Shown here in pieces: positions 12,886 through 52,548 of a DNA stretch of 64,000 nucleotides. A model generated the notes under the pieces. That model was given only the letters and a program-made list of their open reading frames with translations, did not search any database and was not told the origin of the DNA. This DNA comes from Novosphingobium sp. Gsoil 351 (GTDB lineage: Bacteria; Pseudomonadota; Alphaproteobacteria; Sphingomonadales; Sphingomonadaceae). The stretch is taken from assembly GCF_009707465.1 (NCBI RefSeq), contig NZ_CP046120.1, forward strand, positions 2,199,501 through 2,263,500, written 5' to 3'. The stretch's first letter is position 1; the number at the start of each line of letters is the position of its first letter. The position numbers and the translations under genes are program-made.

Positions 12886-12982
12886 GCGGAGTAGCTAGGG
12901 TCAACGCGCCTGTACGGCAACCCACGCGCTTTGATTGTCGCCTTTGGGCCTGTCAGCGGGTGACATGATCGCCTCGCATTGC

Positions 12983-13369
12983 TCAGGGCGCGAAGTGCAT
13001 TTGGCGCGGGCGATGAGGCCTGGCAGTCCCAGCATCCTCAAGCACCCGCCGATGCGGCGAACGCCGCGCAAACACCTCCGCCAGCGCAACCAGATCGAGC
13101 CCGTAGCGGATTTCGAACGCAGGCTCGCCGATCTGGTGCTGCTCGGCGTGGTGGGCGCGACACAGGCTGATGGTCCAGCGATCGGAGGGTTTGAGCGCAA
13201 TCCCGCCGTCGGTTCCTGTGCGGACATGGGCGCACTCGATGGGCCCGGCAAGGCAGCCGGGTACCGAGCAGCGATGCTTGCGCACCCAGGCGCGGTGCGC
13301 GGGACAGGACCGCACGGGGTTGGGGCGGCGCTCGCGGACGAGCCGGGGCGGGAGGGACACGCTAGCCAT
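12983..13369 (-). CDS. DUF968-type HNH-like phage protein
   Basis: The 128-residue basic protein has a metal-binding pattern CSVPGC (residues 33-38), ECAHV (45-49) and LCRAHHAEQH, the C-x4-C/H arrangement of the DUF968/HNH superfamily. These are frequent in phage replication and recombination modules (Ref- and NinG-like nucleases). It is the last gene of a four-gene overlapping operon. Its ATG at 13369 overlaps the ERF stop by 8 bases. The neighbours (ERF, YqaJ, DUF3489) support a phage recombination role. The catalytic activity is not tested, and the C-terminus beyond residue 95 is arginine-rich without motif. Confidence 0.8.
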   Translation of the reverse strand: MASVSLPPRLVRERRPNPVRSCPAHRAWVRKHRCSVPGCLAGPIECAHVRTGTDGGIALKPSDRWTISLCRAHHAEQHQIGEPAFEIRYGLDLVALAEVFARRSPHRRVLEDAGTARPHRPRQMHFAP

Positions 13370-14222
13370 TTGCGGCCAGCCCTTCCGCGACCGCGATGGT
13401 GCTCGCCCGCTTCGCCCGCGCCGGCTTGGACTGAGAGCCGGTGCGCTTCACGCCCGCTCCGGCTGATGCGCGGGCGGCGAGGACTGTACCATCCACCGGC
13501 TCAGACGAACCTGCAGCTTCGGCGGTGACGATTGCCGCGACCGCCTGCGCCAGCACCTTGCGCCGCGAAGCAATGGCCCACCCGACCCGCGCGTAAGCGG
13601 TGGGCTGCTCGCGCGCCAGCGCGGAGAGCTGGGCGCGGTTGCTGGCGAGCAGCCGCTCGATCGCCTCGGGGGTGACGCAGCTTTCGACCACCGCGGCGAT
13701 GTCCTCGGCCCACTGCAGCCAGCCTTCGACGGGCGCGGGGAGGGCTGCCACCCTGCCGCGGCCGGACGAGCTGCGGCCCGACGGGCCGGGGCAGGGTGAG
13801 TTGCGGTCCGGGTCCTCGCGTCCGCTGGCGGGGATGCAGAACGCATGGAGCACCGCGTGCTTGTAGGCCGAGGTCATCGCCTTGGCGCTGGCCTTGTCGC
13901 CATGGTCGAGCGCCTCGCCGACCGCCTCGATGGTGTGCGACGAGCCATCCTCGACGCTGACCAGGTCGAACGCGACGCGCAGGACCACGTGGATCAGCGC
14001 TTCCCCGGCGGGATCGGTCCGCTCGCCCTGGGTGCGCTCGAGCACCCGGGGCAGGATACACAGCCTGTGCTCGGCCAGCAGCGGCGCGAGCCGCTCGACC
14101 ACCTCGTCGATGGCGCGATAGGCATAGCCCTCGTCGCGGTTGATCCGCTCCCTGGGCAGGCCGTGATGGGCGAAGGCGGCGGTGATGGCGCTGATCGCAC
14201 CGTAGACCCGGGGCAGGCTCAT
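13362..14222 (-). CDS. erf: ERF family single-strand annealing recombinase
   Basis: This is a 286-residue protein from the ATG at 14222, which overlaps the preceding stop as ATGA. The first 150 residues match the ERF superfamily of phage annealing proteins. The visible pattern is YGAISAITAAFAHHGLP, YAYRAIDEVVERLAPLLAEHRL, the beta-strand segment HVVLRVAFDLVS and the conserved AMTSAYKHAVLHAFCIP. ERF proteins promote annealing of complementary strands and phage genome circularisation, usually with a nuclease such as YqaJ. The C-terminal 130 residues are low in conservation and alanine/arginine-rich. In the reading frame without the frameshift of the upstream gene, the ERF frame is continuous with the N-terminal part of YqaJ. 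Confidence 0.88.
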   Translation of the reverse strand: MSLPRVYGAISAITAAFAHHGLPRERINRDEGYAYRAIDEVVERLAPLLAEHRLCILPRVLERTQGERTDPAGEALIHVVLRVAFDLVSVEDGSSHTIEAVGEALDHGDKASAKAMTSAYKHAVLHAFCIPASGREDPDRNSPCPGPSGRSSSGRGRVAALPAPVEGWLQWAEDIAAVVESCVTPEAIERLLASNRAQLSALAREQPTAYARVGWAIASRRKVLAQAVAAIVTAEAAGSSEPVDGTVLAARASAGAGVKRTGSQSKPARAKRASTIAVAEGLAANG

Positions 14223-15239
14223 GAGCGTTGCCCGCGGATCGGAGCGGCCTCCCTGATGGTGATCGCGCCGGCCTTGCTGCGTTTGGCCTCGATGCCGTGG
14301 CCGTAGGCGCGCGCGACATCGGCCTCGACCAGTTCCTTCAGCGACGAGGTCGCGGTGGCATGCGTCCTGGCCGCCTCGCGGTGCTCGAGCCAGTCGGCCG
14401 CGAACGTGGCCCAGGCGTTGTGCCCGGTCATGCACACCTCGCGCACCCCCACCGGTTTGGGAGCATGGCTGATGATGCTGATCACCGGAGGCTCGCCGCT
14501 TCGGACACAATGCCAGAACCGCATCTCGGCCTCGAGCAGGTCTTCCTGGTACATCCAGTCCGAGGCCACTTCGTAGACCTCCCACTTGGAGTTGCCGTAA
14601 AGCACCGAGAGCAGCGCGGTGTCGCAGCCCACCACCGCCATGGTGTGCTGGAGCTGGGGCATGTAGCGCTGCAGCACTTCGTCGGGACTGCCGAACGGGC
14701 TGGTGTGCTTGGCTTCCCAGATCGCTCCTCGCTCCATCACGTAACCATCGAGCGTGGCGCTTGCGCCAAGGTCGGACCGGGCAGCGCACCCGTTCGCCGA
14801 CGCGGGTGACCGCATGCCCGACCAGCTTCTCGTACCACTGGCGGTTGAACGCCTCGGTCCAACTGCCGAGCATCACCGGCAGCTTGTCCGAGAGGTCTTC
14901 GGGCGCCTCCTCGCCGCGCTTCTCGCGCCAGAGGCGCAAGATCCGCTCCGCCGACCCCGACAGGATGGTGTTGGCGTCCGAACCGCCGATACTGCCTACT
15001 CGCTCGGCGAGGGCCGCCGCGCTGAGGCCAAGCGAACCTAGCTCGGGCCAGGGGACCGATCCCCGCAATGGCTCGCGCTCGGGTTGCGCGGCCGATCGAG
15101 GCCGACCTTGCGGAGTGGGCAGCACCTGCGCTGCTTGATCCTGTTTTGCCATGCGAGTTGATCCGCGTTTGCCCGCGCGCGGGTTGCCGGCATGGACCTG
15201 GGGCGAGGGCGCGGCGCGAGATGGCTGGGGGTTGGTCAT
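14219..15239 (-). pseudogene. YqaJ-type viral recombinase nuclease, interrupted by a +1 frameshift
   Basis: Two pieces in different frames together make one YqaJ family protein of about 339 residues. The N-terminal piece (15239 down to about 14760) has RVGSIGGSDANTIL, LRLWREKRGEEAPEDLS and MLGSWTEAFNRQWYE, the first half of the nuclease core. The C-terminal piece (to 14219) has TLDGYVMERGAIWEAKHTS and QHTMAVVGCDTALLSVLYG, with the catalytic E-x-K in WEAKH. Removing one base at about 14759 gives a normal join, PWRK-ATLDGYV. The start ATG at 15239 overlaps the DUF3489 stop. Either the gene is broken or the base is a sequencing error. YqaJ exonucleases work with annealing proteins such as the adjacent ERF. 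Confidence 0.8.
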
Positions 15240-15604
15240 CACAACACGCTCCCCGTGCCAATCGTGGTGCCAGTGGTGGTCTCACTGACCGCTAAGACCG
15301 CCGGGGTGATCGCGTAGCGCGAGATGCCATCGCGCATTGTCCGCACGATCGCGTGGCGTTTGTGCCGCAGTGTGGTGAGCGCGGCGCGGACGCTGTGCGA
15401 CTGCCATCCCGTCGCCGCCATCAGCTCATCGATGCTGACGCCGCCGGGCTGACCAAGCAGCTCCATGACCACGGTGTTCTTGCTCCGCGGCGGCAGCGCC
15501 TTGGCATTCTTCGGCGCTGTGCCCTTTCTTGCCTGCGCTTCGGATAGCGGTTTCCGCCCGCGCGTGGCGACGCGGCTCGGGGCGTTGGTGGTCTTGCGGA
15601 TCAT
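15239..15604 (-). CDS. DUF3489 domain protein, first gene of the phage recombination operon
   Basis: The 121-residue protein has a basic N-terminal half (PSRVATRGRKPLSEAQ) and a C-terminal winged-helix-like domain, NTVVMELLGQPGGVSIDELMAATGWQSHSVRAALTTL. This is the DUF3489 signature and looks like a small DNA-binding domain. I choose ATG 15604, where the protein begins MIRKTTN. The longer open frame to 15787 has a Trp/Cys-rich N-terminus that does not fit. Its stop overlaps the YqaJ start. It probably regulates or assists the downstream recombination genes. DUF3489 genes are common in sphingomonad and rhizobial mobile DNA. Confidence 0.82.
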   Translation of the reverse strand: MIRKTTNAPSRVATRGRKPLSEAQARKGTAPKNAKALPPRSKNTVVMELLGQPGGVSIDELMAATGWQSHSVRAALTTLRHKRHAIVRTMRDGISRYAITPAVLAVSETTTGTTIGTGSVL

Positions 15605-15948
15605 GGGGTGTCTTTCGGTGTTCGAAGCCGCACCAGTGCTGCTTCCACCGACCACACCCCCGCCGGTCAGCCGGTCGGGGGTAACGCGCCGCTCAAGCGG
15701 CTGCATTCGCACGAGCAACCAATGCTCGCTTCGCCAGCACAGTCCACTCGAATGTCGAACTCCCCAGCACAAATCCGCGTCCGGCAAAAAGCTGGGTCAC
15801 CGAGACCAGGGTCCTGCGTCAAAGAACGTGTCCGAGTAGCAGCGGAAATCCGTCGCGCCGCAAGCTTTGAACTTTTTGTCGAGCCAAAACCGGCATTTGC
15901 GCGTTGTGCCTGGAGACCTGGGTGTTCCGGGCGCAGAGGAACGATCAC
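15605..15948. other. Intergenic region between phage operon and catalase (344 bp)
   Basis: The two flanking genes diverge, so the stretch must hold two promoters. I see no open frame with coding character. An imperfect GC-rich inverted repeat lies at about 15655-15680 (CCCCGCCGGTC ... CCGGTCGGGG). The catalase ribosome binding site AGAGGAA is at 15932-15938. I could not identify an OxyR, RpoH or EcfG site with confidence. Confidence 0.5.
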
Positions 15949-18018
15949 ATGGTCAAACAGACGGAGCAGTCCCGCGGTAGCGGCGGCGAAACACATCAGC
16001 GCGGATCCGACGAGCTTCTCACGACCAACCATGGCGTTGGAGTCAGCGACAATCAAAATAGCCTGAAGAGCGGTTCGCGCGGTCCGACGCTGCTCGAAGA
16101 CTTCGTCCTGCGCGAGAAAATCTTCCATTTCGACCATGAGCGCATCCCCGAGAGGATCGTTCATGCCCGCGGCACGGGTGCGCATGGCGTGTTCGAGGCG
16201 ACGGCGGATATTTCCGGGCTTTCGAAGGCAGCGGTGTTCACCAAGGGTGAGAAGACAGAGGTCTTCGTTCGCTTCTCGACGGTGGCGGGCGGAGCGGGAT
16301 CGGTCGACACGCCGCGGGACGTTCGCGGTTTCGCGGTCAAGTTCTACACGCGCGAGGGCAACTGGGATCTGGTCGGCAACAACATCCCGGTTTTCTTCAT
16401 CCAGGATGCGATCAAATTTCCCGACCTCGTCCATGCGGTAAAGATGGAGGCGGACCGCGGCTATCCGCAGGCCGGCAGCGCGCACGACACCTTCTGGGAT
16501 TGGGCCTCGCTGATGCCCGAAACCACACATATGCTGATGTGGGCGATGTCCGACCGAACACTACCGCGTTCGTTACGGATGATGGAAGGTTTCGGGGTTC
16601 ATACTTTCCAGCTTGTCAACGCCGCCGGGAAAGTCAGTTTCGTCAAATTCCACTGGCGACCCCGGCTGGGCATTCAGTCGACCGTCTGGGACGAGGCGCT
16701 GAAGCTTCAGGCGGCTGACAACGACTACCACCGGCGCGATCTGTTCGAAGCGATCGATACCGGTGCGTTTCCGCAGTGGGATCTCGCGATCCAGGTGTTC
16801 GATCAGGCGTTCGCCGATGCGCAGCCTTACGACGTTCTCGACGCGACGAAGCTGATCCCCGAAGAGGACGTCCCGCTCCGCGTGATCGGGACCCTGACGC
16901 TAAACCGCAACGTCGACAATTTCTTTGCTGAAACCGAGCAGGTTGCGTTCCTGCCGAGCAACATCGTGCCCGGCATCGACTTCTCGAACGACCCGCTGCT
17001 CCAGGGGCGGCTGTTCAGTTATCTCGACACGCAGAACTCGCGCCTTGGGACCACCAACTTTCACCAGATTCCAGTCAACGCGCCGCGCTGCCCGTTCGGC
17101 AATTTCCAGCGTGACGGCAAGATGCAGACGATGGTGCCCAAGGGCCGTGCCAATTACGAGCCCAACAGCCTGGCAGCGCACGGCGAGGAAGGCGGACCTC
17201 GGGAGAATCCCGAGCGGGGCTTCGTCACGGCAAGCGCCACAAGGGGCGATGACGAAACGGGCGACAAGCTTCGCGTCCGGGCCGAGACCTTTGCCGACCA
17301 CTACACCCAGGCGAGGTTGTTCTACCGCTCGCAGGACGCTCACGAACAGGCGCACATCGCCTCCTCCTTCGTCTTCGAGCTCTCGAAGGTAGGTCTGCTG
17401 GACCAGGTGCCGCCGCGAATGGTCGCCAATCTGCGAAACGTCGATGAGGATCTGGCCAAACGCGTCGCAGCTGGCCTCGGCATCCCCCTGCCGCCCAAGG
17501 CGAAAGCAGCGAAGCCGACACTCGATATGCCGCCCTCCGATGCGCTGTCGATTCACAAGAAGATGAAGGCAACGCTTGAGGGGCGCGCGGTCGGAATCCT
17601 GATCGCCGACGGTACCGACGCGGCTGATCTCAAGTCCATGGTCGAAGCGGTGACCAAGGCCAAGGGCAAGCCGGTGCTTGTCGCGCCCAAGATCGGGGGC
17701 GTGAAACTATCCGATGGCAAGTTGCAAAAGGCGGACGGTCAGCTGGCGGGTTCACCCAGCCAGCTATTCGATGCAGTCGCGATCATTCTCTCGGACGAGG
17801 CCTGCGCGATGCTCCTCGCAGACGGCGCGGCTGTCGAGTTCGTGATGAACGCGTATGGGCATCTCAAAGCGATTGGCGCCAGCGCGGCAGCGCAGCCGCT
17901 GCTCGACAAGGCGGGTGTCAAACCGGATGAGGGTGTGACGACCTTAGGTGCTGCGTTCGTCAAAGCCGCTGCTCGGCGCTTCTACGACCGCGAGCCTCAC
18001 ATTCGCACCTTGGCGTGA
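15949..18018 (+). CDS. katE: Large-subunit monofunctional catalase (clade 2, HPII-like)
   Basis: The 689-residue protein starts at the ATG at 15949 with an AGAGGAA site 10 bases upstream. It has the clade-2 layout. First comes a polar N-terminal extension. Next is the catalase core, with the active-site His in [12 protein letters not shown] (about residue 73), the active-site Asn region in [19 protein letters not shown], and the haem-tyrosine segment [14 protein letters not shown]. Last is a C-terminal flavodoxin/GATase-like domain at about residues 530-689. It removes hydrogen peroxide in the cytoplasm and is usually linked to general stress or stationary phase. It is the first host-type gene after the phage operon and is followed by exonuclease III, making an oxidative-stress pair. 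Confidence 0.94.
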
Positions 18019-18187
18019 CCCCACGGGTGCAAGTGGCGGAATAGGGCGCGGCTGTCCCTGACTTGAGTGCCGGCTCAAATCCAGGGAGCAGACTTTGGAT
18101 ATCTTCACACCTTGGCTGGTGATATCTCACGCGCGTCCTCAAGTGCTATAATCGCAACCGCAGCTGCGTTGGCGCGTTGGGATCAGC

Positions 18188-18985
18188 GTGAAGCTTGCCA
18201 CCTACAACGTCAACGGCATCAATGGCCACCTGTCCGTGCTGCTGCGTTGGCTCGGCGAATCGGCGCCCGACGTTGTGTGTCTGCAGGAACTAAAAAGTTC
18301 CGACGACCGGTTTCCGGAAAGCGCACTTCGCGATGCGGGCTACATTGCAGCATGGCATGGTCAGCAACGTTGGAACGGCGTCGCCATCCTCAGCCGGGTT
18401 GGTGATATCCATGTGACCCGCCGCGGTCTGCCCGGCGATCCTGACGACACGCACAGCCGCTACCTGGAAGCAGCGATCAACGGGATCATCGTGGGCTGCC
18501 TCTATCTGCCCAACGGGAATCCGCGGCCAGGACCCAAGTTCGACTACAAGCTCAAATGGTTCGCGCGGCTGCTCGACCATGCGCAGGGCTTGCTCGATCA
18601 TCGTCTGCCGGTCGCGCTGGTGGGCGATTTCAACGTCATGCCGACCGATCTCGACGTCTACGCCCCTGAACGCTGGCGTGACGACGCGCTGTTCGCGCCA
18701 GAGGTACGCGAGGCTTACGCCGCGCTGCTTGCACAAGGATGGACTGATGCCGTCCGTGCGCTTCATCCCGATGAGCGCATTTACACATTCTGGAAGTATT
18801 GGCGCAACGCCTTCGCTCGCGACTCCGGCCTGCGAATCGACCACCTACTGCTCAGCCCCGATCTCGCCGCCCAACTGACCAAAGCCGGCATCGATCGCAG
18901 TCCGCGCGGTTGGGAGAATACCAGCGACCACGCCCCGGCGTGGATCGAGCTGAACGACAAGCCGAAACCCGGGAGGAGGCGCTGA
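18188..18985 (+). CDS. xth: Exonuclease III (AP endonuclease)
   Basis: The 265-residue protein of the EEP superfamily starts MKLATYNVNGI. The conserved asparagine is in TYNVNGI, the metal-binding Glu in CLQELK (residue 39), the catalytic Asp-Asn in VGDFNVMPTDLD and the last motif in DHAPAWIE, with RIDHLLLS before it. It repairs abasic sites and 3'-blocked ends made by oxidative damage, which fits the preceding catalase. Many sphingomonads carry several copies, and this one may be an accessory paralogue. Its stop overlaps the start of a small basic protein gene (TGATG at 18983-18987), so the two are coupled. Confidence 0.93.
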   Translation: MKLATYNVNGINGHLSVLLRWLGESAPDVVCLQELKSSDDRFPESALRDAGYIAAWHGQQRWNGVAILSRVGDIHVTRRGLPGDPDDTHSRYLEAAINGIIVGCLYLPNGNPRPGPKFDYKLKWFARLLDHAQGLLDHRLPVALVGDFNVMPTDLDVYAPERWRDDALFAPEVREAYAALLAQGWTDAVRALHPDERIYTFWKYWRNAFARDSGLRIDHLLLSPDLAAQLTKAGIDRSPRGWENTSDHAPAWIELNDKPKPGRRR

Positions 18986-19521
18986 TGCCGCGCGCGCTGA
19001 AGGTGTATCGGACCGCGATCGGGTTCCATGATGCCTATGTCGCTGCGCCGAGTCAGAAAGCCGCGCTGGCCGCTTGGGGTACGGACAAGAACCTGTTTGC
19101 GCGCGGTGCAGCGGAGATTGTGAGCGACCCAGTGTTAATGAAGGCCCCGCTGGCAAGGGCGGGCCAAGTAATCCAAGTCGTGCGCGGCTCCGCGGCGGAC
19201 CACGTTAAGGCACTCGGCAAGGGTGAGCGACCGAAGGCGAGATCCGCGCCGACGCCCCAGCGGAAGCAGCGCGAAGCCAAACCCAAGCGTCCACCCAAAC
19301 CGTCGCGCGAGGCGCTTCGGCTGGCCAGGCAGGGTATGCGCAGGGCCGCCGAGCGTGCCGTCGAGTTACTCGCCGACCTCGCAAAGCGTGAGAAGGCATT
19401 GGCCGCGGAGCGCCGCCGGCTGACACTCGCGCTTTCCGCCGAAAAACAGCGGCAGCTTACGCGTTTGCGGCAGGCCGAAAAGGCATACGAAGACGCGCTC
19501 GCGGACTGGTCGCGCGGCTAA
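18985..19521 (+). CDS. Small basic hypothetical protein with C-terminal coiled coil
   Basis: The protein of 178 residues starts at ATG 18985, overlapping the xth stop. Residues 1-70 form a compact domain with the segment YRTAIGFHDAYVAAPSQKAALAAW. Residues 75-115 are lysine/arginine/proline-rich. Residues 115-178 form an alpha-helical region with heptad-like spacing (LADLAKREKALAAERRRL), a likely coiled coil. The longer upstream open frame is a shadow of xth. The coupling with xth suggests a role linked to DNA repair, perhaps a nucleoid or DNA-binding helper. I do not recognise a Pfam family. Confidence 0.75.
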   Translation: MPRALKVYRTAIGFHDAYVAAPSQKAALAAWGTDKNLFARGAAEIVSDPVLMKAPLARAGQVIQVVRGSAADHVKALGKGERPKARSAPTPQRKQREAKPKRPPKPSREALRLARQGMRRAAERAVELLADLAKREKALAAERRRLTLALSAEKQRQLTRLRQAEKAYEDALADWSRG

Positions 19522-19726
19522 AAAGTCTGGCGCTCGCTCGACGCTACCTGCATTTGGTTATCGAAAGTCCTTCCCGTTTTTCGGAGGAGTCTCGCCGGAG
19601 GGATGCGAAGTCGCTGGCCGCCCGTCCATGAAGGTGGGCTGAGGAATTTCCGACGTTTTGCCGATGGACTTTTCGCGGGACACCAACCTGCTTGTTTCTC
19701 ATCCCGCAACACGGCGATAAGGGCGT

Positions 19727-21778
19727 ATGGGATGGCGTTTCGGCACCGACGCGCGACTAATAGCGTTCATCCCGGCAGTGGCGGGCGGCGCACCTGCATG
19801 GGGGCAGGCGGCGGAAGAGATCATCGTGACCGGCGAGCGGGTGGCGCGGAGCGAAGCTACAACCCCATCCAGCGTCGTGGTGATTACGAGCGACGCAATC
19901 CGGGCGATGCCTGGGACCGATCGTATCGATCAAATTTTCGCACTCATACCCAACGTCCAGCTGGGATCGGGCGGTGAAGGGCCGACGATCCGCGGCCAGG
20001 ACAGCAATGGTCCGTTGCGCGATATGCCTGCGTTCCTGGGCGGCAATCGCCCCCGTGTGACGATGCAGATCGATGGCCGCCCGGTTGGCTATAATGAGCT
20101 CGCATTCGGGGTCACTGGACTCTGGGATGTTGCAAAGATCGAGGTGTTTCGTAGCCCGCAGACCACGACTCAAGGGCGCAACGCTATCGCCGGGGCAATC
20201 TTCATTGAGACCGCTGCGCCGAGCTTCGATTGGCAAGCACGCGCTCGCCTGCTCGTCGGTGAGGCCGAAACGCGCCAGGCATCGGCTGCGGTCGGCGGAC
20301 CTTTGATTTCCGATGCGCTCGCATTTCGCGCGTCGGTTGATCTCCGCCGCAGTCGGCCTGCCAGCCGCATTTCTTCGCCGGCCCTGACCGATTTCAATCG
20401 CGACGATTACGATTCGCTCAGGTTAAAGTTGCTCGCTACGCCGGAGAACACGCCGGGCCTTCGGTTATCTGCAACCCTCAGTCACAATCGTTCTGCAGCG
20501 CCGCAGTTGGAGGGGGTTCGCGCGCCGTTTGCGGCTCGCCGAGACCCTGCCGCTACCTATGGCTTCTTCAAAGTGCGGGTGGATGCTGCGACACTTCGGG
20601 CCGACTATGCCATTACCTCCGATTGGAACACCACTGTCACGCTGACCCGCGGAGACGCGACAATCCGACGGATCGCCCCGCCGGGATTCGGCGAAGCACG
20701 GATCGGAGCCGGCGACTGGACCGCCGAAGCAGTTACGATCTGGCGCCCCCGACCGAACCTGGCGCTGCTTACGGGAGCCAACTTCACTCACGCCACGCTC
20801 GAGCAACAGATCGATCTTCGCGCGGCACTGCTGGGTATGGGCCGCTTTAGCGATCGCCAAGATGCGCTCGGTCTGTTCGGCCAGGCGGAATGGCGGGTCG
20901 CGTCCGCTCTTACCGTCACAGCGGGTGCGCGCTACCAGCGCGACGACCAGGACCGCTCGGGCATTCTCGGCATCGGTAACCCCACCCAGTTGCCGCTCGA
21001 TTTCCGCCAGCGTTATTCGCGCTTTCTCCCGAAGGTGTCGGTGAGCTTCGATGTGCTGAAAGGATTGCGCGTGGGGGGGCTAGTGCAGCGCGCCTACAAT
21101 CCGGGAGGCGTCACGCTCGATGCGCGCCGCCGAATCGCGGATACATTCGACCCCGAAACCCTCTGGGCTTACGAAGCGTTCGTACGTCTCGCAGCACCGA
21201 ACCGCACGTTCATCGTTTCGGCCAACATTTTTTACTACGACATGAACAATGCACAACGCAGCGTGATGCGTGAGCTGCCGACGCCAGCCGGCATCGTGAC
21301 GGTCGCCGAAATCGGCAATGCGCCCGCCGCACGCAGCAGCGGAGGGGAGTTGCAGGGCCAGTGGCAGGTTCGGCCTGGCCTCGATGTTCGCGGAGCGATC
21401 GGGCTGCTACAGACTCGCTTGACCCGCACGCTCAGTGCATCCGATCCGCTACTCGGAAAGCAGTTTCAGCGCTCGCCCCACTTTACCGGTACCGCCGCTA
21501 TTGATTGGCGCCCAAGCGACGACCTGCGGCTGTCAGGTCAAGCTCGGCACAACTCGGGGTATTACAGCGAGGACACGAATGATCGCGATCGCCGGGTCGG
21601 CGGGGCGACTGTTGTAGACATAAACGGCGCATGGACGCGCGGCCCGTTCACGGTATCAGCGTATGTTCGCAATTTATTCGACAAGTTTTACCTCACCTAT
21701 CGGTTTTCGAAGGTGATGAACCTCGCCACCGCCGGTGATCCACGAGAATTCGGCGCCTCGGTAGAAATGCGCTTCTAA
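19727..21778 (+). CDS. TonB-dependent outer membrane receptor
   Basis: The 683-residue protein has a short signal-like N-terminus with a probable cleavage after AWGQA (residue 28). A TonB box-like EIIVTGERV and a plug domain follow (VVVITSDAIRAMPGTDRIDQIFALIPNVQ). The plug ends near the RNAIAGAIFIETA segment and a 22-stranded barrel ends in the terminal Phe of FGASVEMRF. It imports an unknown substrate using TonB energy. The very weak N-terminal hydrophobic core makes the exact start uncertain. It is followed 37 bp later by a winged-helix/TPR regulator and then a sulfotransferase, a local grouping that may handle a sulfated or aryl substrate. Confidence 0.9.
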   Translation: MGWRFGTDARLIAFIPAVAGGAPAWGQAAEEIIVTGERVARSEATTPSSVVVITSDAIRAMPGTDRIDQIFALIPNVQLGSGGEGPTIRGQDSNGPLRDMPAFLGGNRPRVTMQIDGRPVGYNELAFGVTGLWDVAKIEVFRSPQTTTQGRNAIAGAIFIETAAPSFDWQARARLLVGEAETRQASAAVGGPLISDALAFRASVDLRRSRPASRISSPALTDFNRDDYDSLRLKLLATPENTPGLRLSATLSHNRSAAPQLEGVRAPFAARRDPAATYGFFKVRVDAATLRADYAITSDWNTTVTLTRGDATIRRIAPPGFGEARIGAGDWTAEAVTIWRPRPNLALLTGANFTHATLEQQIDLRAALLGMGRFSDRQDALGLFGQAEWRVASALTVTAGARYQRDDQDRSGILGIGNPTQLPLDFRQRYSRFLPKVSVSFDVLKGLRVGGLVQRAYNPGGVTLDARRRIADTFDPETLWAYEAFVRLAAPNRTFIVSANIFYYDMNNAQRSVMRELPTPAGIVTVAEIGNAPAARSSGGELQGQWQVRPGLDVRGAIGLLQTRLTRTLSASDPLLGKQFQRSPHFTGTAAIDWRPSDDLRLSGQARHNSGYYSEDTNDRDRRVGGATVVDINGAWTRGPFTVSAYVRNLFDKFYLTYRFSKVMNLATAGDPREFGASVEMRF

Positions 21779-24461: not shown

Positions 24462-24464
24462 CCG

Positions 24465-45901: not shown

Positions 45902-46265
45902 CTCAGGATCCTCTCGTCAATTGTTCGAGACTATGATGGACTTTTTGCCCACGGCAATTGAATAATTCCTAGATAGCTAGTTGACCGTGTCGAAGGCGCC
46001 GATCTGACGAACGTACCTGATCGGATTGCGGACACCCAATGCTCTGCGATATCTCAGGGCCACTCCTCCATAAGGGAGGCGGTTGCCGACACTCTGCCCT
46101 CAGGCGGCTGCCCTCTGGAAACGGACGTCCAGGTATTGTCTGTCTAATCGCAAAGATGTCTCGGCTGGGCACGGTTAGCGCTTGGTTGCCCACCCTGAGC
46201 CCATGACCGCGTGCCCCTCGGCCAGGGCCACCCATTGCCGCTTTTAGCGAACCGCCACACCGGCA
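45902..46265. other. Intergenic region between OPT transporter and lipid kinase (364 bp)
   Basis: No coding frame is supported. The region must contain the promoter of the OPT gene (minus strand). A small imperfect inverted repeat around 46065-46080 (CTCCTCC ... GGGAGG) is the only structure seen. Confidence 0.45.
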
Positions 46266-47168
46266 TTATATTTGGAACTGCCCGTCGCGGGGTGCCGCCA
46301 CCTCAATGGCGCCTTTCGCGACGCTGATTGTTACCGGGGTTCGCGCTGCTATCTCGCCGTCGATCGAAATATCGAGCCGGGGCTGGGTGCCAAGCCGCAT
46401 TTTGCGCCCCCGAAACTCACGTGTCGTGCCGTGCCTTCCGCGCAGCTTTGTCACCGTCGCGAACCAGCTCCAACCCAGACCCCATACGCTTTTCCCGGTG
46501 ACGGCCTGAATGACAATCACTCCGCTATCAATTTCCTGACTCTCGACCATTTCGACTCCGCCGTGATGCGTGCCGTTGGCGATCCGAACCTCGGTCGCCC
46601 AGACTTTCTTGTGTCGCCCATCGTCGTACTCGACGGTCACTCGGAACGGCCGGAACTTGAACGCGCAGCGCGCCGCCCAGAGCAAATAACCGACCATACC
46701 CAGGTAGCGCTTCAACTTAGGAGGCACCGTCTCGGCGATCATCGGCGACAGGCCTATCGCCGCGGCATTGACGAAGAAATGTCCGTCGATGCAGCCAAGA
46801 TCGATCCGCTTGCGCTCTCCATTGGCAATGACCGCGACCGCGCTGTCGATGTCCTTGGGAATTCCAAGCGTGCCCGCAAAGCTGTTGGCGGTGCCAAGCG
46901 GTACGATCGCGAACACGGTGTCTTTGCCCATGAAGGAACTGACGTTGGTCGACAGCGATCCGTCACCGCCACCCACGATCACCATCGGCGCCTGCGCGAT
47001 TGCATCGCAAATGGTCGGCTCCATCTGGTCCGGATCGGTGATGGCGTGCGCGGCAAGGAGTTCGACTCCCGCGGCAGCCAGCTTGTCACGCACTTCGTCA
47101 AACGCTTCGGCACCACTGCGGCTCATGGAGTTGACGACGAGGATGGCTTGTTGGGGGAGGGGTGTCAT
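46266..47168 (-). CDS. Diacylglycerol kinase family lipid kinase
   Basis: This is a 300-residue protein from the ATG at 47168 (MTPLPQQAILVVNS). The nucleotide-binding loop is VVGGGDGSLS, followed by IVPLGTANSFAGTL, the classical DAGKc signature, and the C-terminal DAGK accessory-like domain has IANGTHHGGVEM. It phosphorylates diacylglycerol, sphingosine-like or related lipids. In a sphingolipid-producing host a ceramide- or sphingosine-type substrate is possible but cannot be decided. The longer in-frame start at 47288 adds 40 residues with no family resemblance. It is divergent from the small periplasmic protein gene. Confidence 0.9.
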   Translation of the reverse strand: MTPLPQQAILVVNSMSRSGAEAFDEVRDKLAAAGVELLAAHAITDPDQMEPTICDAIAQAPMVIVGGGDGSLSTNVSSFMGKDTVFAIVPLGTANSFAGTLGIPKDIDSAVAVIANGERKRIDLGCIDGHFFVNAAAIGLSPMIAETVPPKLKRYLGMVGYLLWAARCAFKFRPFRVTVEYDDGRHKKVWATEVRIANGTHHGGVEMVESQEIDSGVIVIQAVTGKSVWGLGWSWFATVTKLRGRHGTTREFRGRKMRLGTQPRLDISIDGEIAARTPVTISVAKGAIEVAAPRDGQFQI

Positions 47169-47459
47169 CTCAGCCGTGCGTGGCACGCCCTCTATGCCCG
47201 CGCCAGTCCCGTGTAAGCTAGGAGCAGTCGTTCCGCGTCCAACGACGAAAACTTGCGTCAGTGGCCGCGTAACCCTGCCCTCCGGCACTGGGTCGAGGCG
47301 CGCCCAACATCGCGCAGCAACGCGGCTAAGCTAAACACGAAGCGATCCGTAGCGGTGCAGAGCATGAAATTAACGAACTCGCTCAATTATTTGACCGGCT
47401 TCATCCCTTAGGCATGACTCACCGACGCGATGAAGTATCGCGTTCATGGGGGATAATTG

Positions 47460-48056
47460 ATGGATTACCGTGTTGCCGCGCTTGCGGCCGTCTTGCTTGC
47501 TTCGCCGGTCGCCGCACAGGCGCCTACTCCGACGGCCAACCCCAAGGTGCCCGCCACCGTTGTATTGCCCATGATGGTATCGCCCGCACAAAACGTCACC
47601 TTGATCCAGCAACAAGCAGCAAGCGATGTGTTGCGCGCGGGTTCACCTGTTCCCGTCGCTCTCTCCGAGTTTCTCACGACGAAGGGCAAGGCTCTCAAAG
47701 TCGGGCAACGTGTCCGTCTTGAAGTCGCACAGGACGTCATGATCAACGGTCGCCTCGCCATCCCGGCGCGCAGCCCTGTCGAGGGCGTTTTGACCGAAGT
47801 TCGCAACAAGGGGATGTGGGGCAAGTCCGGTGCGATACGGCTGCACATCAGCTCCGTGAGCATCAACGGCACGGCGATCAGGCTCACCGGCGACATGGAC
47901 ACCCGAGGTCAAACCGGCACCGCTGGGGTGGTGGGCTCTCTTGTCGTTCTTCCGATCGCAGGTTTCTTTGTAACTGGCACCAGCGCCGAGATGCCACTCA
48001 ACATGCCAGGTCGCGCGTTCCTCGATCAGGACATCGCCCTGGCCGCCGCTCTCTGA
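47460..48056 (+). CDS. Periplasmic hypothetical protein
   Basis: The protein of 198 residues starts at ATG 47460 (MDYRVAALAAVLLASPVAAQ), with GGGGGA upstream. The upstream TTG at 47457 is not needed. The mature domain is beta-rich: KVGQRVRLEVAQDVMINGRLAIPARSPVEGVLTEVRNKGMWGKSG, then an end with GRAFLDQDIAL and a hydrophobic segment near residues 160-178 (TAGVVGSLVVLPIAGFFVTG). It has the look of a conserved alphaproteobacterial protein with a small barrel and a C-terminal membrane segment. Its function is unknown. It is followed by a truncated frame. Confidence 0.7.
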   Translation: MDYRVAALAAVLLASPVAAQAPTPTANPKVPATVVLPMMVSPAQNVTLIQQQAASDVLRAGSPVPVALSEFLTTKGKALKVGQRVRLEVAQDVMINGRLAIPARSPVEGVLTEVRNKGMWGKSGAIRLHISSVSINGTAIRLTGDMDTRGQTGTAGVVGSLVVLPIAGFFVTGTSAEMPLNMPGRAFLDQDIALAAAL

Positions 48057-48188
48057 GGATCACCAGTTCACTAGGCGCGCCTAACAACGGTGCGCCTAGT
48101 GGGCCTCATTTCTTGCTGTCCTATTCGCCCGGCGCGGCTCTACGTGGCTATGGGTGCCGTAGCCTGCATCGTGGTGCCATCGTTCTGA

Positions 48189-48443
48189 GCTACATACCGG
48201 GAAGAAGGCGACTGGCAGCGGCTGGCCTGGTGGATCCACGCCCACCTACCCTACTCCTACCTGACCTTCCTCAAGACCCATTTCGCGTTCAACATCGGCT
48301 GGCATGAGAATCCAACCCGCATCATTGACAGCCGAGCCAAGCCGCGAGCAATCCTAACCAAGCCGGGAATGGCCAACCACGATGGCAGTCACGCCGAAAC
48401 GTGGGATGGCATTGTAACGGACAGCATGGTGAGCACTAAATAG
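48189..48443 (+). pseudogene. 5'-truncated ORF, remnant of a phage-like hypothetical protein
   Basis: In the plus frame the residues ATYREEGDWQRLAWWIHAH ... LTKPGMANHDGSHAETWDG run from 48189 to a stop at 48441-48443. It is 84 codons with no in-frame start, because a TGA stands directly upstream at 48186. The tryptophan-rich, conserved-looking sequence is typical of a real protein core rather than chance. It is convergent with the terminase gene (79 bp). The 5' end is lost or broken by the TGA. I do not recognise its family. Confidence 0.5.
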
Positions 48444-48521
48444 ACGCCGAGTGGACCGGGCGGGGGAGTAGCCCGCTTCGCCTGTCAACGGAGCCAAAGA
48501 GTTGTAAACTGCCAGGAGGAT

Positions 48522-49982
48522 CTAGCGGCGCATACGACCTTTGGGGCGGGGGAGTGCCCGCGGCCGCTCGCGGTGAAAATCTTGCCGCTCGGGATTGAGC
48601 AAGCTGGCGAACCTCGTCTGAATGTAGTCGAGCGCCTGGCTGGTGCTATCGACCTGATCGTCATGAACCCGATTGGGAAAGCCAAGGAGTTCGTCGAGGT
48701 AAAGCGCAAGCCAGGGCGCGTCGCGCGGCAGGAAGATCCTGCCGGTCTCGAACATCACGGCCCGCGCCTGCATTCGCGCGACTTTGTCGATCTTGGGTCT
48801 ATGGAGAATCGGTCTGCACACACTGGACGCACGCCGGAGGTGCTGCACCAGCCCACGGCCAAGGTCGGCGTCTTCAACCACGGTTACATGGACCCCGCAG
48901 CGTTGATGCACCTGCTCAATACGGCGGATGAGTTCGGGGGCTTCGAGACGGACACGCTCGACATGAAGCAAATGAGCCTCGTTCGCCCGGACGCCCCAGA
49001 CTGTCGCGACTGACCAGTCAGAATTTTCTCCCAAGGTCGATGCGGTATCCCAGCTGGCAACACGTGTGGTGTAGTCGTCGGCCGGTTCCTCGTAATAGCG
49101 CAGCCAGCCTTTGCGCACGACAATGCCATCGTCAGGTACCGGTTGCTGTTGATATTGCGCGCTGAATGCGGTTTGGCCCATGATCCGGCGGCGGACTTCG
49201 AGCTCTGCTTGACCCATCCGCGAAGGCTGGATGTGCTCGCCCCGCGCGCGGTGGTAAATTTCGCCATGACCGATGTCCCAGGTTTCATCGGCGGTCGCTG
49301 TGGCGGGAACGACCAAAGTTTCCCACTGTTCCTGCCCGAGCATGTGGCCCGCCAGATCGTCATCATGGAGCCGCTGCATCACGCAGACGATGGCGCTTGC
49401 GCGTGGGTGGTTGAGGCGGGTTGAAACCGTGTGGTCGTAAGACTTCTTCACCCTGTCACGAGCGACCTTCGAATAGATCTCCTGCCCCTTGTTGGGGTCG
49501 TCGAGAATGATGAGATCAGCGCCTCGGCTCAGCACGCTGCCATTGATCGAGGTGGCGAGGCGGTACCCGCCAGTCGAGCTTGTCCACTCCATCTGCCGGT
49601 TGGGTACGACAGGGCGGCACGCTGGAAATACCCGCCGGAACCAGGCGCTACTGACCACCCGGTTGAACAGTACCGCCTGCGCCAGCGCCACATCCTTGTT
49701 ATACGCCACCGCCATGATCCGGCAGCCCGGGTCATGACCCAGCCGCCAGGCACTATAGCCGACGCTGACCAGGATCGTCTTCATGCTGCGCGGGGGTAGG
49801 TTGACCATCAGCCGGCGGCAATCGCCTCGAGTTACCCGTCGCAAACGCTCGTTGATGAGATCGATATGCCAATTGTGCTCATAGGTCGTGCCCGGCTCGA
49901 GAGTTGCCATGACCCGGGCGATAAAGGTCGGATAGTCGATCCGGATCATGGCGTCGTAGAAGCTTTCAGGAAGTTCGATCAC
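48522..49982 (-). CDS. terL: Phage terminase large subunit
   Basis: The 486-residue protein has the terminase ATPase: a Walker A-like PPRSMKTI near residue 63, Walker B DLIILDDPNKG, and the coupling motif region (AIVCVMQRLHDDDLAGHML). The C-terminal RNase H-like nuclease shows VEDADLGRGL and HDDQVDSTSQAL, the acidic residues of the packaging nuclease. It pumps and cuts DNA during virion packaging in phages and similar particles. Its start overlaps the stop of the DUF5681 gene by 4 bases (49979-49982), a normal phage packaging order. No portal or capsid gene follows downstream, so the module looks truncated. Confidence 0.93.
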   Translation of the reverse strand: MIELPESFYDAMIRIDYPTFIARVMATLEPGTTYEHNWHIDLINERLRRVTRGDCRRLMVNLPPRSMKTILVSVGYSAWRLGHDPGCRIMAVAYNKDVALAQAVLFNRVVSSAWFRRVFPACRPVVPNRQMEWTSSTGGYRLATSINGSVLSRGADLIILDDPNKGQEIYSKVARDRVKKSYDHTVSTRLNHPRASAIVCVMQRLHDDDLAGHMLGQEQWETLVVPATATADETWDIGHGEIYHRARGEHIQPSRMGQAELEVRRRIMGQTAFSAQYQQQPVPDDGIVVRKGWLRYYEEPADDYTTRVASWDTASTLGENSDWSVATVWGVRANEAHLLHVERVRLEAPELIRRIEQVHQRCGVHVTVVEDADLGRGLVQHLRRASSVCRPILHRPKIDKVARMQARAVMFETGRIFLPRDAPWLALYLDELLGFPNRVHDDQVDSTSQALDYIQTRFASLLNPERQDFHRERPRALPRPKGRMRR

Positions 49983-50398
49983 TTCGTACCGTGCCTCGCT
50001 GCGGGGACTTCCGCGTCAGATTTGTCGTTGCCCAGCAGCTGTTCTTGGGACAGATAGCGCTTCGCGAACCGGGCCAGGTCCGCCGGATCGACCGCCACCA
50101 CCGGGTATTCAGGCTGGCTCGGCCCAGCGATCAGCTTCAACAGGTTGGCCAGACTCTTGGGGTCGCCCATGGCGGCGTCATTGACGAGTTTCTTGGCGAT
50201 GATCTCGCGCTTGGTCAGGCGGACGCGTTTGCCGCCCTCGGAGATCATAACCATCTGATCGAGTTCCGCTTCGACCTGCTTGCGGATGTCCCGGTTTTTG
50301 GGCGGGCGACCGGCGGGATTGCCAGACTGCCCCTTCTTGAACCGGGCATGTTCCGGCGGGTTGCCGCCGCGGGCGGACTTGGGGCGAGCGGCGGCCAT
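49979..50398 (-). CDS. DUF5681 protein, possible terminase small subunit
   Basis: The 139-residue basic protein begins MAAARPKSARGGN and has the DUF5681 signature FKKGQSGNPAGRPPKN near residues 20-36. A helical part with KREIIAKKLVNDAAMGDPKSLANLLKLI follows. Many such genes sit directly before terminase genes, and the domain is thought to bind DNA as a small terminase-like subunit. It overlaps the terminase start by 4 bases and the methyltransferase stop by one base (50398). Direct evidence for its role in packaging is not available here. Confidence 0.85.
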   Translation of the reverse strand: MAAARPKSARGGNPPEHARFKKGQSGNPAGRPPKNRDIRKQVEAELDQMVMISEGGKRVRLTKREIIAKKLVNDAAMGDPKSLANLLKLIAGPSQPEYPVVAVDPADLARFAKRYLSQEQLLGNDKSDAEVPAARHGTK

Positions 50399-51861
50399 CA
50401 GACCTCCTCCCCCGCGGCGGCACCATCGTCGCCATCGGCTCGCAAAGGAACTGGATCGCCATCTTGAGCTCCGGGGATTCGCTCGCGGGTTATTTCGGCA
50501 AAGGTCTGGCCGGTTGCCTCCAGCACTGCCTCATTCCCGCTTAGCGCTTTCCACCGCCTGATCGTCGCATCGCAGTAGAGTGGATCGAGCTCGATCAGCC
50601 GCGCCTTGCGCCCGGTCCGCTCGGCCGCAATCAACGTGGTGCCATAACCTCCAAACGGATCGAGGATGATGTCACCGCGCCTCGAACAATCTCGGATCGC
50701 ATCGGCAACCATGATCCACGGCTTGACCGTGGGATGGGCAGCAAGTTCTTCGTCGCGAGCCCGGTGGAAGCCAGCGTTACCCTTGTAATTCCAGACGTTC
50801 GTACGGTAGCGCCCAGTTTCGCCCAGCCCGAAATTGTTGATGTGCGGACCGGTGCCGTTCTTCCAAACAAAGATCAATTCGTGCTGGGATCTGAAAAAGG
50901 TCCCCATCGATGCCGAGGGCTTGGCCCACACGACCAATTGCTTAAGTTCGGTGTAGGCTTGGTTGCCTGCAGCCAGCATCTCGCCCATGTGCTTCCAGTT
51001 CATGCACTGGAAATGGATTGAGCCGTCGATGCTGTGTTGAGCACAGTGCCGGAATGCCCTCGTTAGAAAGGTGGTGAACCCCTCGGGGGACATCTCGCCC
51101 GCCGCCATCGCAAAGTCGCGGTGCTTGTGCTTGCCCTTGCTGGAGATGGCAGCCGCTGATTCGTTGTACGGGGAATCTGAAAACACCATCCCCGCTTTTT
51201 CGCCGCCCATTAACGTGACGTACGTCTCCGCTTCGAGGGAGTTGCCGCAGATGAGGCGGTGCGTACCCAGGAGCCACACATCCCCCAGCCTGGTGATAGC
51301 CACTTCGCTCTCATTCGGGGGACCAGAGAGGCCATCCTTTTCCGGCTGAGGAGCGCATAAGAGATCGTCGATCTCGCTGGTCGCAAACCCCGACAGCTCG
51401 ATCTTGAGGTCGAGATCGAGTTCTCCCAATTCGGACAATTCGATCCTGAGCACATCGAGATCGAACTCGGACTGTTCGGCGATCTTGTTGTCCGCGATTG
51501 CGTACAGCCGCAGCTGCTCTGGACTGAGATGTTCCAGTTCGATCACCGGAACCACGGTCATCCCCAGCGCTGTAGCTGCCAGCCATCGCCCGTACCCACT
51601 GACTATCTGGCCGGCGTGGTTGATCAGGATCGGGTTAACGAAGCCGTGCTCGCGTATGGATGCGCCAATAGCCGCGATCTGTCGTTTATTGTGCTTGCGC
51701 AAGATTCGGGCGGGCGGCTTCACATGGGCAAGAGCGCGGTAGGTGACGTTGATACGCAGGTTGCTTTGGAAGTGATTGTTCAATGCCGCGGTCGGGGTTG
51801 AGCCCTCGACTGGGTTTGCGAATTGAACCCGCTTGCGGATGTTAGTCTTTTTGGGTGTCAC
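50398..51861 (-). CDS. ParB-like/N6-adenine or N4-cytosine DNA methyltransferase fusion
   Basis: The 487-residue protein starts at the GTG at 51861 with GAAGGA upstream. Residues 50-180 form a ParB/Srx N-terminal nuclease-like domain (NKRQIAAIGASIREHGFVNPILI and GYGRWLAATALG). Residues 210-450 are a beta-class DNA methyltransferase. Motif IV is FSDSPYN, where DPPY is expected, and motif I is LDPFGGYGTTLIAAERTGRK. The Pro to Ser change in motif IV could affect activity. This phage-type fusion is common beside terminase genes and probably marks phage DNA or protects it from restriction. Confidence 0.88.
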   Translation of the reverse strand: MTPKKTNIRKRVQFANPVEGSTPTAALNNHFQSNLRINVTYRALAHVKPPARILRKHNKRQIAAIGASIREHGFVNPILINHAGQIVSGYGRWLAATALGMTVVPVIELEHLSPEQLRLYAIADNKIAEQSEFDLDVLRIELSELGELDLDLKIELSGFATSEIDDLLCAPQPEKDGLSGPPNESEVAITRLGDVWLLGTHRLICGNSLEAETYVTLMGGEKAGMVFSDSPYNESAAAISSKGKHKHRDFAMAAGEMSPEGFTTFLTRAFRHCAQHSIDGSIHFQCMNWKHMGEMLAAGNQAYTELKQLVVWAKPSASMGTFFRSQHELIFVWKNGTGPHINNFGLGETGRYRTNVWNYKGNAGFHRARDEELAAHPTVKPWIMVADAIRDCSRRGDIILDPFGGYGTTLIAAERTGRKARLIELDPLYCDATIRRWKALSGNEAVLEATGQTFAEITRERIPGAQDGDPVPLRADGDDGAAAGEEV

Positions 51862-52044
51862 GGGCTTGTCCTTCGGGTCGGTCGAGCAGCCAGGACAGAA
51901 TCGGGTAGACCATAATGAAATGGTCGGTCCGGTCGCTATCTTTGCTGCCCACATGCCCGAAGTGACAAGCGGAATGCCTCCATTCGCCGCTCGCGGAGCT
52001 CAGGAGACCCCCCACATAGCACGGTATTGTCACGGTGCAAAATA

Positions 52045-52084
52045 AATTGTACATGAATTCTGCAAATATACCCGACGTACAATT
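52045..52084. promoter_or_regulatory. Candidate operator: AT-rich inverted repeat
   Basis: AATTGTAC and GTACAATT are perfect inverted arms separated by 24 bases, about 184 bp upstream of the methyltransferase start. The layout fits a phage-type dimeric repressor or a looping site. No repressor gene is next to it. Confidence 0.3.
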
Positions 52085-52217
52085 CTAATACTGCTACGAT
52101 TAAAGTGTTTGTCGAGAGTTGTGGCTCTGATTTCGGAAAAATGTGCCCTGTTAATTGTGCTTGATATCAGCCAAGTACTTGAGCGAGTTGGGATTCGCGA
52201 GACGGGATGAAAGGCTT

Positions 52218-52300
52218 CCCCTGTTTTGCCTTATGAAACAGGGGTCAGATCGCCTCTGGCAGCGATGTTGCTGCCCTGTTAGCGCCTTCATAAAGAAGGC
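52218..52300. ncRNA. Cluster of three consecutive hairpins, candidate structured RNA or recombination site
   Basis: Stem 1 is CCCCTGTTT (52218-52226) with AAACAGGGG (52236-52244). Stem 2 is GGCAGC (52258-52263) with GCTGCC (52270-52275). Stem 3 is GCCTTC (52284-52289) with GAAGGC (52295-52300). All arms are perfect. It could be a small RNA, a leader structure or an attachment/recombination site. I know no family with this arrangement. Confidence 0.3.
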
Positions 52301-52548
52301 CCCCGCTTTGCTCTGCAGCTCCCTGTTCCTTGGGCGTTTCGCACAGCAACGCGCTCAAAGCAGGCAACCAAGGTAACCTTCCCACGCTAGTTGGAGCTCA
52401 ACGATCCTGCCGAGGGCCACCCAGCAGCGACTCAGCGCGACGATTGTTCAACACACAACCGCGCCATCGCCGACCCTGGTCCGAGGGGTGCAGGTCAGAT
52501 CGACTCAACAGGGTCGACGCCTACGGCGAGCGCGTTACAGAGCAACCC

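Follow-up and report, generated by a model that had tools for sequence, protein, structure and literature searches.

A 40-kb accessory island with a terminase cassette and a recombination module at its two ends, located between dnaJ and pdxH of Novosphingobium sp. Gsoil 351

A stretch of 64,000 nucleotides of Novosphingobium sp. Gsoil 351 (contig NZ_CP046120.1, positions 2,199,501 to 2,263,500; G000:C1:2199501-2263500 in the locus names used here) was analysed and is referred to below as the window. It contains a 40-kb block between dnaJ and pdxH, two genes that are normally adjacent. The block was found to be an insertion with two distinct ends, namely, a recombination module on the dnaJ side and, on the pdxH side, a cassette of three genes (the trio) encoding a terminase large subunit (TerL), a DUF5681 protein and a ParB/DNA methyltransferase fusion (ParB/MTase), followed by iterons. 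Both the insertion and this architecture are well supported. The reading that fits best, at slightly less than even confidence, is that the block is one composite accessory island whose backbone is a two-ended element with a terminase and without capsid genes, which would depend on the capsids of a helper.

Insertion at the dnaJ-pdxH site

To locate the two genes, 119 genomes of the same genus (own included) were surveyed, and second, weaker copies were dropped in a few of them. At the cut-offs used, both dnaJ and pdxH were recovered in 115 genomes, on one contig every time. The gap between them was 480 bp or less in 113 of the 115 (median over the 115, 191 bp), 39.7 kb in strain Gsoil 351 and 19.3 kb in genome G078. 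Because 113 of the 114 other genomes keep dnaJ and pdxH close together, it may be concluded that the 40-kb block was inserted, as the initial annotation had supposed from the adjacency of these genes in many sphingomonads. The middle of the block as ancestral dnaJ-pdxH content was rejected since it was absent from 113 of the 114 other genomes.

The insert extends from approximately 12.9/13.0 to 52.51 kb of the window. On the left, homology with contig C130 of genome G177 ends at 12900 and restarts at 13016, and G177 has about 0.5 kb between these points. On the right, alignment to contig C103 of the same genome places the junction at approximately 52511/52512, with homology restarting at 52512. 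The G+C content was lowest in the right leader (0.54), followed by the cargo (0.62), the right flank (0.68) and the left module (0.69). The main features are as follows.

12901..13016, no strand: left junction zone, from the host dnaJ leader to the element (alignment to G177 C130 and the dnaJ leaders of relatives)
12983..13369, minus strand: DUF968/HNH-like nuclease gene, outermost of the recombination end (PF06147, E 2.6e-8; phrog_1588, phrog_96)
13362..14222, minus strand: ERF single-strand annealing protein (PF04404, E 5.9e-11)
14222..14999, minus strand: YqaJ/RecE-like exonuclease, frame split in two (phrog_434, E 1.3e-17, C-terminal piece)
15239..15604, minus strand: DUF3489 small protein (PF11994, E 6.8e-16)
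15800..48500, no strand: cargo zone (Pfam; scattered matches in relatives)
48522..49982, minus strand: TerL, open frame (PF17289; phrog_38, E 1e-94)
49979..50398, minus strand: DUF5681 protein, in the position of a small terminase (PF18932, E 5.7e-23)
50398..51861, minus strand: fusion of ParB-N and an N6-N4 DNA methyltransferase (PF02195, PF01555; phrog_498, E 4e-109)
52146..52513, no strand: iteron array, six copies of CCCTGTT/AACAGGG, the last at the host junction
inside 52219-52243, no strand: 23-bp dyad CCTGTT-N11-AACAGG, within the iteron array

The gene content of both edges, which the initial annotation had read as DUF3489-YqaJ-ERF-DUF968 on the left and terminase-DUF5681-ParB/MTase on the right, was confirmed by Pfam and PHROG. 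Its statement that no integrase, portal, capsid, tail or lysis gene lies between them held for the 33 open reading frames (ORFs) of the insert scanned with Pfam, in which short ORFs were covered in part. Relaxase or conjugation families were likewise not found among these ORFs, and a conjugative island was rejected on this ground. The pair of DUF2924 and a large serine recombinase, described below for relatives, was not among the scanned ORFs, and YqaJ-ERF-DUF968 was present instead. No tRNA genes and no Rfam matches at gathering scores were found. The word GCAACCCA, at 12917 and 52542, falls on both junction zones, which is not significant.

The other long gap, in G078 (L057/L058, G078:C2:593443-612788), is occupied by another insert of about 19 kb. 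Read by eye, it contains transporter, transketolase-like, kinase-like and TonB-receptor-like genes and resembles ordinary sugar/nucleoside metabolism; phage modules were not seen in it by eye, without a family search.

The two ends and their relatives

In TerL, residues P63, P64, R65, K68, D161, D162, D312, E370, D441 and D442 were invariant in 26 aligned sequences, and we take these positions to be of the catalytic (ATPase and nuclease) type. A search of PDB by sequence gave no match for TerL. The AlphaFold model of the DUF5681 protein had a mean predicted local distance difference test score of 81 and a predicted template modelling score of 0.47; its fold had two BFVD matches at E<=0.001, one named phage DUF5681 and one unnamed. 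DUF5681 was among the proteins retrieved in the structural proteome analysis of a phage, according to the cited portion of that account (PMC8954984). The ratio of nonsynonymous to synonymous substitution rates (dN/dS), determined by NG86 over five pairs, of which the window-L083 pair was near saturation, was 0.07-0.15 for TerL, 0.12-0.28 for ParB/MTase and 0.08-0.41 for DUF5681. The trio genes are thus under purifying selection.

DUF5681 was present in 51 of 195 same-genus genomes and at three loci of strain Gsoil 351, whose 3.82-Mb single contig (G000) was scanned. The third ParB/MTase-DUF5681-terminase set of this genome was seen among ordinary-looking genes (L279, G000:C1:2286000-2305999, 9629-13013); its TerL is of another class, Terminase_3, and six TTCCCG copies stand in about 150 bp behind it.

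Relatives of TerL were sought in genome contigs and in viral contigs of IMG/VR with a profile built from five TerL proteins. The sample comprised 80 of 129 confirmed genome loci and the nearest 80 of at least 570 viral loci, 160 in total; the viral loci were the nearest TerL contigs and no random sample, 76 of the 80 were whole contigs, and many contigs were short. Genes were called in these loci with a simple codon-score caller and labelled with small hidden Markov models (HMMs) built from these same sequences, so the counts are approximate. By these HMMs, the trio was complete in 63 of the 80 genome loci and in 65 of the 80 viral loci. When genes were clustered across the 80 genome loci, the commonest neighbours of TerL were ParB/MTase (62), DUF5681 (56), a serine recombinase (13) and DUF2924 (13). 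A small XRE protein came next (9), and an ABC component (6) and two further families (4 each) completed those seen in four or more loci. When viral contigs were searched with single queries, TerL gave two loci and ERF gave no match. Judged by gene content, capsid-less relatives of the trio cassette appear to be scattered through alphaproteobacterial genomes.

Two kinds of recombination module accompanied the trio. DUF2924 with a serine recombinase was found at 62 of the 160 loci (14 genome and 48 viral), and in 48 of these 62 the recombinase gene came after TerL on its strand, whereas in 14 it lay elsewhere. Any of YqaJ, ERF or HNH was found at 12 loci (3 genome and 9 viral). No locus of the 160 had both modules; the chance of no overlap was 0.56 for the genome loci and 1e-4 for the viral loci. 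At the serine-recombinase loci no convincing attachment (att) repeats were found, direct repeats reaching 12 bp and inverted repeats 13 bp. It was observed by eye that the serine-recombinase ends of three trio elements (L106 15620-16344, L148 5756-6586, L095 11623-12574) abut a similar membrane-protein-like gene of 105-110 aa, which a lepA-like gene adjoins twice. This 105-110-aa gene is a candidate attachment site for the serine-recombinase elements.

The initial annotation had raised the question of whether the recombination and packaging genes co-occur in relatives in the same arrangement, and several loci show a shared order and strand. At 3.70 Mb of the same genome, the two modules keep the order and strand seen in the window and are separated by about 7 kb. 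The recombination module there has an open yqaJ frame and shares 92.5% identity with that of the window over 2763 nt, whereas the trio proteins are 33-40% identical and the TerL frame is split; a phage-type tyrosine integrase comes after these modules, and an integrase of this type is also found in genome G094. In three Bradyrhizobium loci, the order is ParB/MTase-DUF5681-TerL-YqaJ followed by ERF and DUF968 in one protein, all on one strand, with the YqaJ match falling in two frames in one of them (L123). Three viral contigs (L181, L204, L221) agree in part: they have TerL, YqaJ and ERF in order, with the upstream genes cut off or lacking ParB/MTase. These three and the Bradyrhizobium loci make up the 6 of 160 loci with YqaJ and ERF behind TerL on the TerL strand.

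In G177, whose dnaJ is 88% identical, HNH-ERF-YqaJ-DUF3489 precedes dnaJ on contig C130 and ParB/MTase-DUF5681-TerL on the minus strand precedes pdxH on contig C103, both oriented as in the window. The amino acid identities of its recombination end are 87% for HNH, 82% for YqaJ, 78% for ERF and 46% for DUF3489 (81-83% in nucleotides over the matching pieces). Taken together, these arrangements suggest, with reserve, that the two ends belong together. Beyond dnaJ-brkB-fabI of the G177 contig C130 (L075, 10290-11608), a second HNH fragment stands before an incomplete dnaJ copy interrupted by two stops, an arrangement that would be consistent with partial duplication of the junction.

A second copy of ERF with 90% amino acid identity is present in the genome of strain Gsoil 351, and the two pieces of yqaJ match an uninterrupted 259-aa homologue of this genome in two frames at 96-97%. 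In G177, yqaJ is an open frame of 273 aa. Because yqaJ is split in the window, the local copy may no longer move.

The word CCCTGTT occurs 12 times in the 64 kb, compared with 4.9 expected, and six of these copies lie in 52146-52513. Clusters of at least four copies per 400 bp were counted for all 6-mers over 95 loci (1.55 Mb, 78 loci with ParB/MTase, window excluded). AACAGG clusters were found at 12 loci. Every one of them fell in the 1.2 kb upstream of ParB/MTase, a stretch representing 6.4% of the tested sequence, and the other 1.45 Mb contained none. The word had first been noticed at three of these loci (L086, L088, L140), and the 12 may include close relatives. Other words clustered similarly (upstream/elsewhere: ATTCCC 8/1, CAGGGA 8/3, AGGGAA 7/2, AATTCC 6/0, CGGGAA 5/2), and G+C-rich words also clustered upstream and far more often elsewhere. 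The 23-bp dyad (CCTGTT-N11-AACAGG, or TTCCCG/T-N11 with its complement) was present in 14 of 73 leaders, including those of the window and the 3.70-Mb locus, and N11 dyads as such were no commoner than other spacings. The leader of G177 carries TCCCAG-type repeats. When 18 clusters were pooled, all stood at the outer end of a cassette (read post hoc): 12 upstream of ParB/MTase or DUF5681, 3 beyond a serine recombinase and 3 beyond TerL. An expectation-maximization motif search was discarded since it fitted composition. The iterons are most simply viewed as a cis-acting site that marks one element end and that may serve in packaging, partition, replication or recombination; the array is a candidate packaging site.

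A portal gene directly behind TerL was sought with two profiles, one HK97-type from 12 portals and one Mu-type from two proteins (L157, L219). None of the 111 testable loci with ParB/MTase or DUF5681 had such a gene, versus 4 of the 14 without them (Fisher p 1e-4). Since L157 and L219 belong to the tested set and are positive by construction, the test was repeated without them, and 2 of 12 loci without cassette genes were positive (p 0.009). All four portals, including those of the Mu type, were confirmed by Pfam. The loci with Mu-type portals (L141, L157, L219) lack ParB/MTase and DUF5681, and a Mu-like phage was rejected. At one trio locus, L127, a portal stands about 8.5 kb away, beyond the serine recombinase. 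Eleven own-genus genomes, mostly drafts, have both a PF04860 match and a TerL of this kind, on different contigs; the PF04860 match of G164 falls below the curated cut-off. Because no portal was found behind TerL in the 111 loci and the dN/dS of TerL is low, it appears unlikely that the trio is a broken prophage head module.

Readings of the island

In the reading as one composite island, the packaging end on the right consists of the iteron leader and ParB/MTase-DUF5681-TerL, the recombination end on the left is DUF3489-YqaJ-ERF-DUF968/HNH, and the cargo lies between TerL and DUF3489. Such an island would most likely work as a phage satellite does. The iterons would serve as a pac/cos-like site recognized by DUF5681, by ParB or by both. 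When a helper phage infects the cell, the TerL of the island would engage the portal of that phage and package island DNA into its heads. After delivery, provided that such elements are mobile at present, homology-directed recombination by the exonuclease-annealase pair would insert the DNA, and in relatives a serine recombinase would take the place of this pair. This course of events draws on the known roles of the TerL, ParB, YqaJ/RecE and ERF families. Iterons, the trio, a recombination module and the lack of a portal were all found at this one site; the proposed class of element is defined by these four features from the same data, so that the agreement is not independent.

A broader proposal, which seems possible although short of probable, is that of a widespread alphaproteobacterial family of elements having their own packaging motor and iteron packaging site and no virion genes. 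Such elements would swap integration modules (serine recombinase versus exonuclease-annealase-HNH), exchange TerL classes and carry accessory or defence genes in the heads of other phages. The 40-kb island would then be a large member that captured cargo between motor and recombinase. The initial annotation did not anticipate the iteron end, the serine-recombinase alternative, the presence of a different trio subfamily at this site in G177 or how widely the cassette is spread.

A number of observations weigh against the single-island reading. The absence of loci with both recombination modules carries little weight, being uninformative in the genome loci and confounded by short contigs in the viral ones. 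YqaJ and ERF both stood behind TerL in only 6 of the 12 YqaJ/ERF/HNH loci, another of which (L223) is a portal-bearing contig of phage type, and at 63 of the 80 genome and 23 of the 80 viral loci the fetched stretch contained neither recombination module. Terminal repeats marking circular contigs were found in none of the 160 stretches, among which whole contigs alone are informative. At the two ends of the insert, the best direct or inverted repeats were 8-9 bp in about the number expected by chance, and the check for att sites suggested in the initial annotation thus gave nothing convincing. No integrase of the insert's own, which a phage satellite would have, was found among the 33 scanned ORFs. 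PF04860 (Phage_portal), the one portal family searched genome-wide, had no match in the 3.82-Mb genome. The DUF5681 fold had no PDB match at E<=0.001, small terminases included. An unbiased test of the top 6-mer upstream of ParB/MTase against other gaps (34 versus 122 gaps) showed no difference (p 0.50), and most AACAGG clusters of the viral contigs fell outside the 1.2 kb upstream (1 upstream, 7 elsewhere). The trio of G177 belongs to another subfamily (TerL 34% and ParB/MTase 49% amino acid identity), so that its two ends, which sit on different contigs of a draft, appear to have different histories. Finally, 40 kb is large for a satellite.

Three explanations had been offered in the initial annotation: a packaged island, two independent remnants and a decayed prophage. 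The packaged island fits best. The idea of two remnants survives in a modified form, in which two related but independent cassettes landed separately in the dnaJ-pdxH gap and cargo was gathered between them or afterwards. This is a possible but doubtful alternative, which the weakness of the module exclusion as evidence, the contigs being short, favours. Each cassette is also found alone: in G082, an AACAGG cluster, DUF5681, an 84-aa gene, YqaJ, ERF and HNH lie on one strand with TerL absent, flanked by apparent polysaccharide genes. Separate landings would also leave what is seen in G177, with another trio subfamily at pdxH and a close recombination end at dnaJ, and in G078, with its different 19-kb insert in the same gap. 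Against this, the three Bradyrhizobium loci, the 3.70-Mb locus and, partly, the three viral contigs share the order and strand of both modules, and long inserts in the gap were found in only 2 of 115 genomes.

It is unlikely that the terminase cassette is a domesticated or defence device, with TerL as a decoy or nuclease and ParB/MTase as a marker, that travels with islands. In favour of this reading, the genome has no PF04860 portal, and three DUF5681 loci are present in it, one with the Terminase_3-class TerL. Defence-type genes also adjoin several trios in loci whose cargo was picked by eye for PADLOC analysis: the two halves of PD-Lambda-4 stand between TerL and DUF3489-DUF2924-serine recombinase in L139, PDC-S41 beside the trio in L134, and HsdR in L143. 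However, PADLOC gave no match for TerL or DUF5681 themselves at E<=0.01, the ATPase- and nuclease-type positions of TerL are both conserved, and the serine recombinases and terminal iteron site fit a mobile element better.

Weakest, and improbable, is the decayed prophage, a complete phage that lost its head, tail, lysis and integrase genes and was then filled with cargo: the end genes have phage relatives and both yqaJ and the TerL of the 3.70-Mb locus are split, but portals were absent behind TerL in all 111 testable cassette loci and on different contigs from TerL in the 11 own-genus genomes, mostly drafts, and the trio is under purifying selection.

Cargo, known systems and significance

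The cargo comprises a long-type catalase, Exo_endo_phos, a TonB receptor, a regulator with TPR, a sulfotransferase, a DUF4953/DUF5117 protein and proteases; Transgly_assoc, ABM, SNase, Hsp20, an IS256 transposase, PhoD and a PEP-CTERM protein; and a 1263-aa frame, an OPT transporter and DAGK.

33059..34258, minus strand: IS256/Mutator-type transposase (PF00872, E 1.8e-121)

In relatives, the cargo gave scattered matches, the top two or three segments per genome at most being scored; with this scoring, a relative may still carry the cargo as one block elsewhere. When plasmids were searched with 25 kb of the insert, 237 records were obtained, and catalase or IS256 regions only were matched among the 20 listed. 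The DAGK segment (46078-47265) is 99.2% identical over 1188 bp to G000:C1:3217993-3219179 (L273 4993-6179), where the second copy adjoins groES-groEL-like genes; these copies represent a recent duplication within the genome. A segment of about 450 bp with an 88-aa ORF (29479-29926) has an 87% identical copy at G000:C1:2927276-2927723 (L274 5276-5723), and a perfect 34-bp tandem duplication is present at 24465-24532, directly behind the sulfotransferase gene. The PEP-CTERM protein (37579-38238) has short matches in genes of the cargo zone of the 3.70-Mb locus (own2 40389-45252, G000:C1 about 3702388-3707251). A gene of about 405 aa recurs next to trios in G177 and G128, and endonuclease/exonuclease/phosphatase-like genes were seen by eye at two places of G177 (stretches concerned for both kinds of gene: L267 2569-4505, L089 12190-13407, L075 744-1472); the Exo_endo_phos of the window cargo is at 18188-18985. 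The left flank (window 1-8465) is occupied by a polysaccharide cluster (flippase, glycosyltransferases, FkbM methyltransferase, epimerase) with a low G+C content of 0.60-0.63 around 2-7 kb.

Phage recombination modules of the Red/RecET type combine a YqaJ/RecE-like exonuclease with an ERF annealing protein; here, unlike in those modules, the pair stands at the end of an island, where other trio relatives have a serine recombinase. As in phage satellites, the insert is integrated and lacks a full virion gene set. It has a terminase alone, unlike capsid-forming phage-inducible chromosomal islands (cf-PICIs), in which portal, capsid and terminase occur together, and it has neither the portal, capsid and tail genes of a Caudoviricetes prophage nor, among the scanned ORFs, the relaxase or conjugation genes of integrative conjugative or mobilizable elements. 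The cf-PICIs and the Mulch and Flayer satellites of Streptomyces resemble it in encoding their own large and small terminase and an HNH gene; in contrast to this island, where none was found, they encode a portal, a major capsid protein and other head genes, and the cited part of their description names no serine-recombinase or YqaJ-ERF module (PMC10690885). Classical PICIs, including the Staphylococcus aureus pathogenicity islands (SaPIs), and P4-like satellites are, in the same partial source, integrated islands without virion genes that use helper heads with their own packaging specificity, through a small terminase subunit (TerS) or cos (PMC10690885); they rely on the large terminase of the helper, whereas a complete TerL stands here beside ParB/MTase. 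Phage-inducible chromosomal minimalist islands (PICMIs) are also helper-packaged and devoid of capsid genes, but the cited section describes no identifiable packaging genes in them, a size of about 6 kb for the one studied and a location beside fis in Vibrionaceae (PMC10803314). In phage WO of Wolbachia, a DUF2924 gene likewise stands beside a large serine recombinase, but WO is, in the cited passages, a prophage with head, tail and baseplate modules (PMC11376236). For hitcher elements, terminase genes or cos/pac sites are taken to suggest phage mobilization in the cited part of a work listing known satellite families (PMC11389934). Among the matches listed in open-access full text, with most subscription literature outside this scope, no published description of the present element was found. 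The island is best read as a variant of the phage-satellite kind with its own TerL and without capsid genes.

TerL by itself is a poor marker of a virus or prophage. If the proposed reading is true, it would explain short 'viral' contigs of IMG/VR that have a terminase and no portal, the trio being present in 65 of the nearest 80 TerL contigs. Many alphaproteobacterial islands have no known route of movement, and phage-mediated transfer would gain a further route if elements devoid of capsid genes move by means of their own TerL, DUF5681 and terminal iterons.

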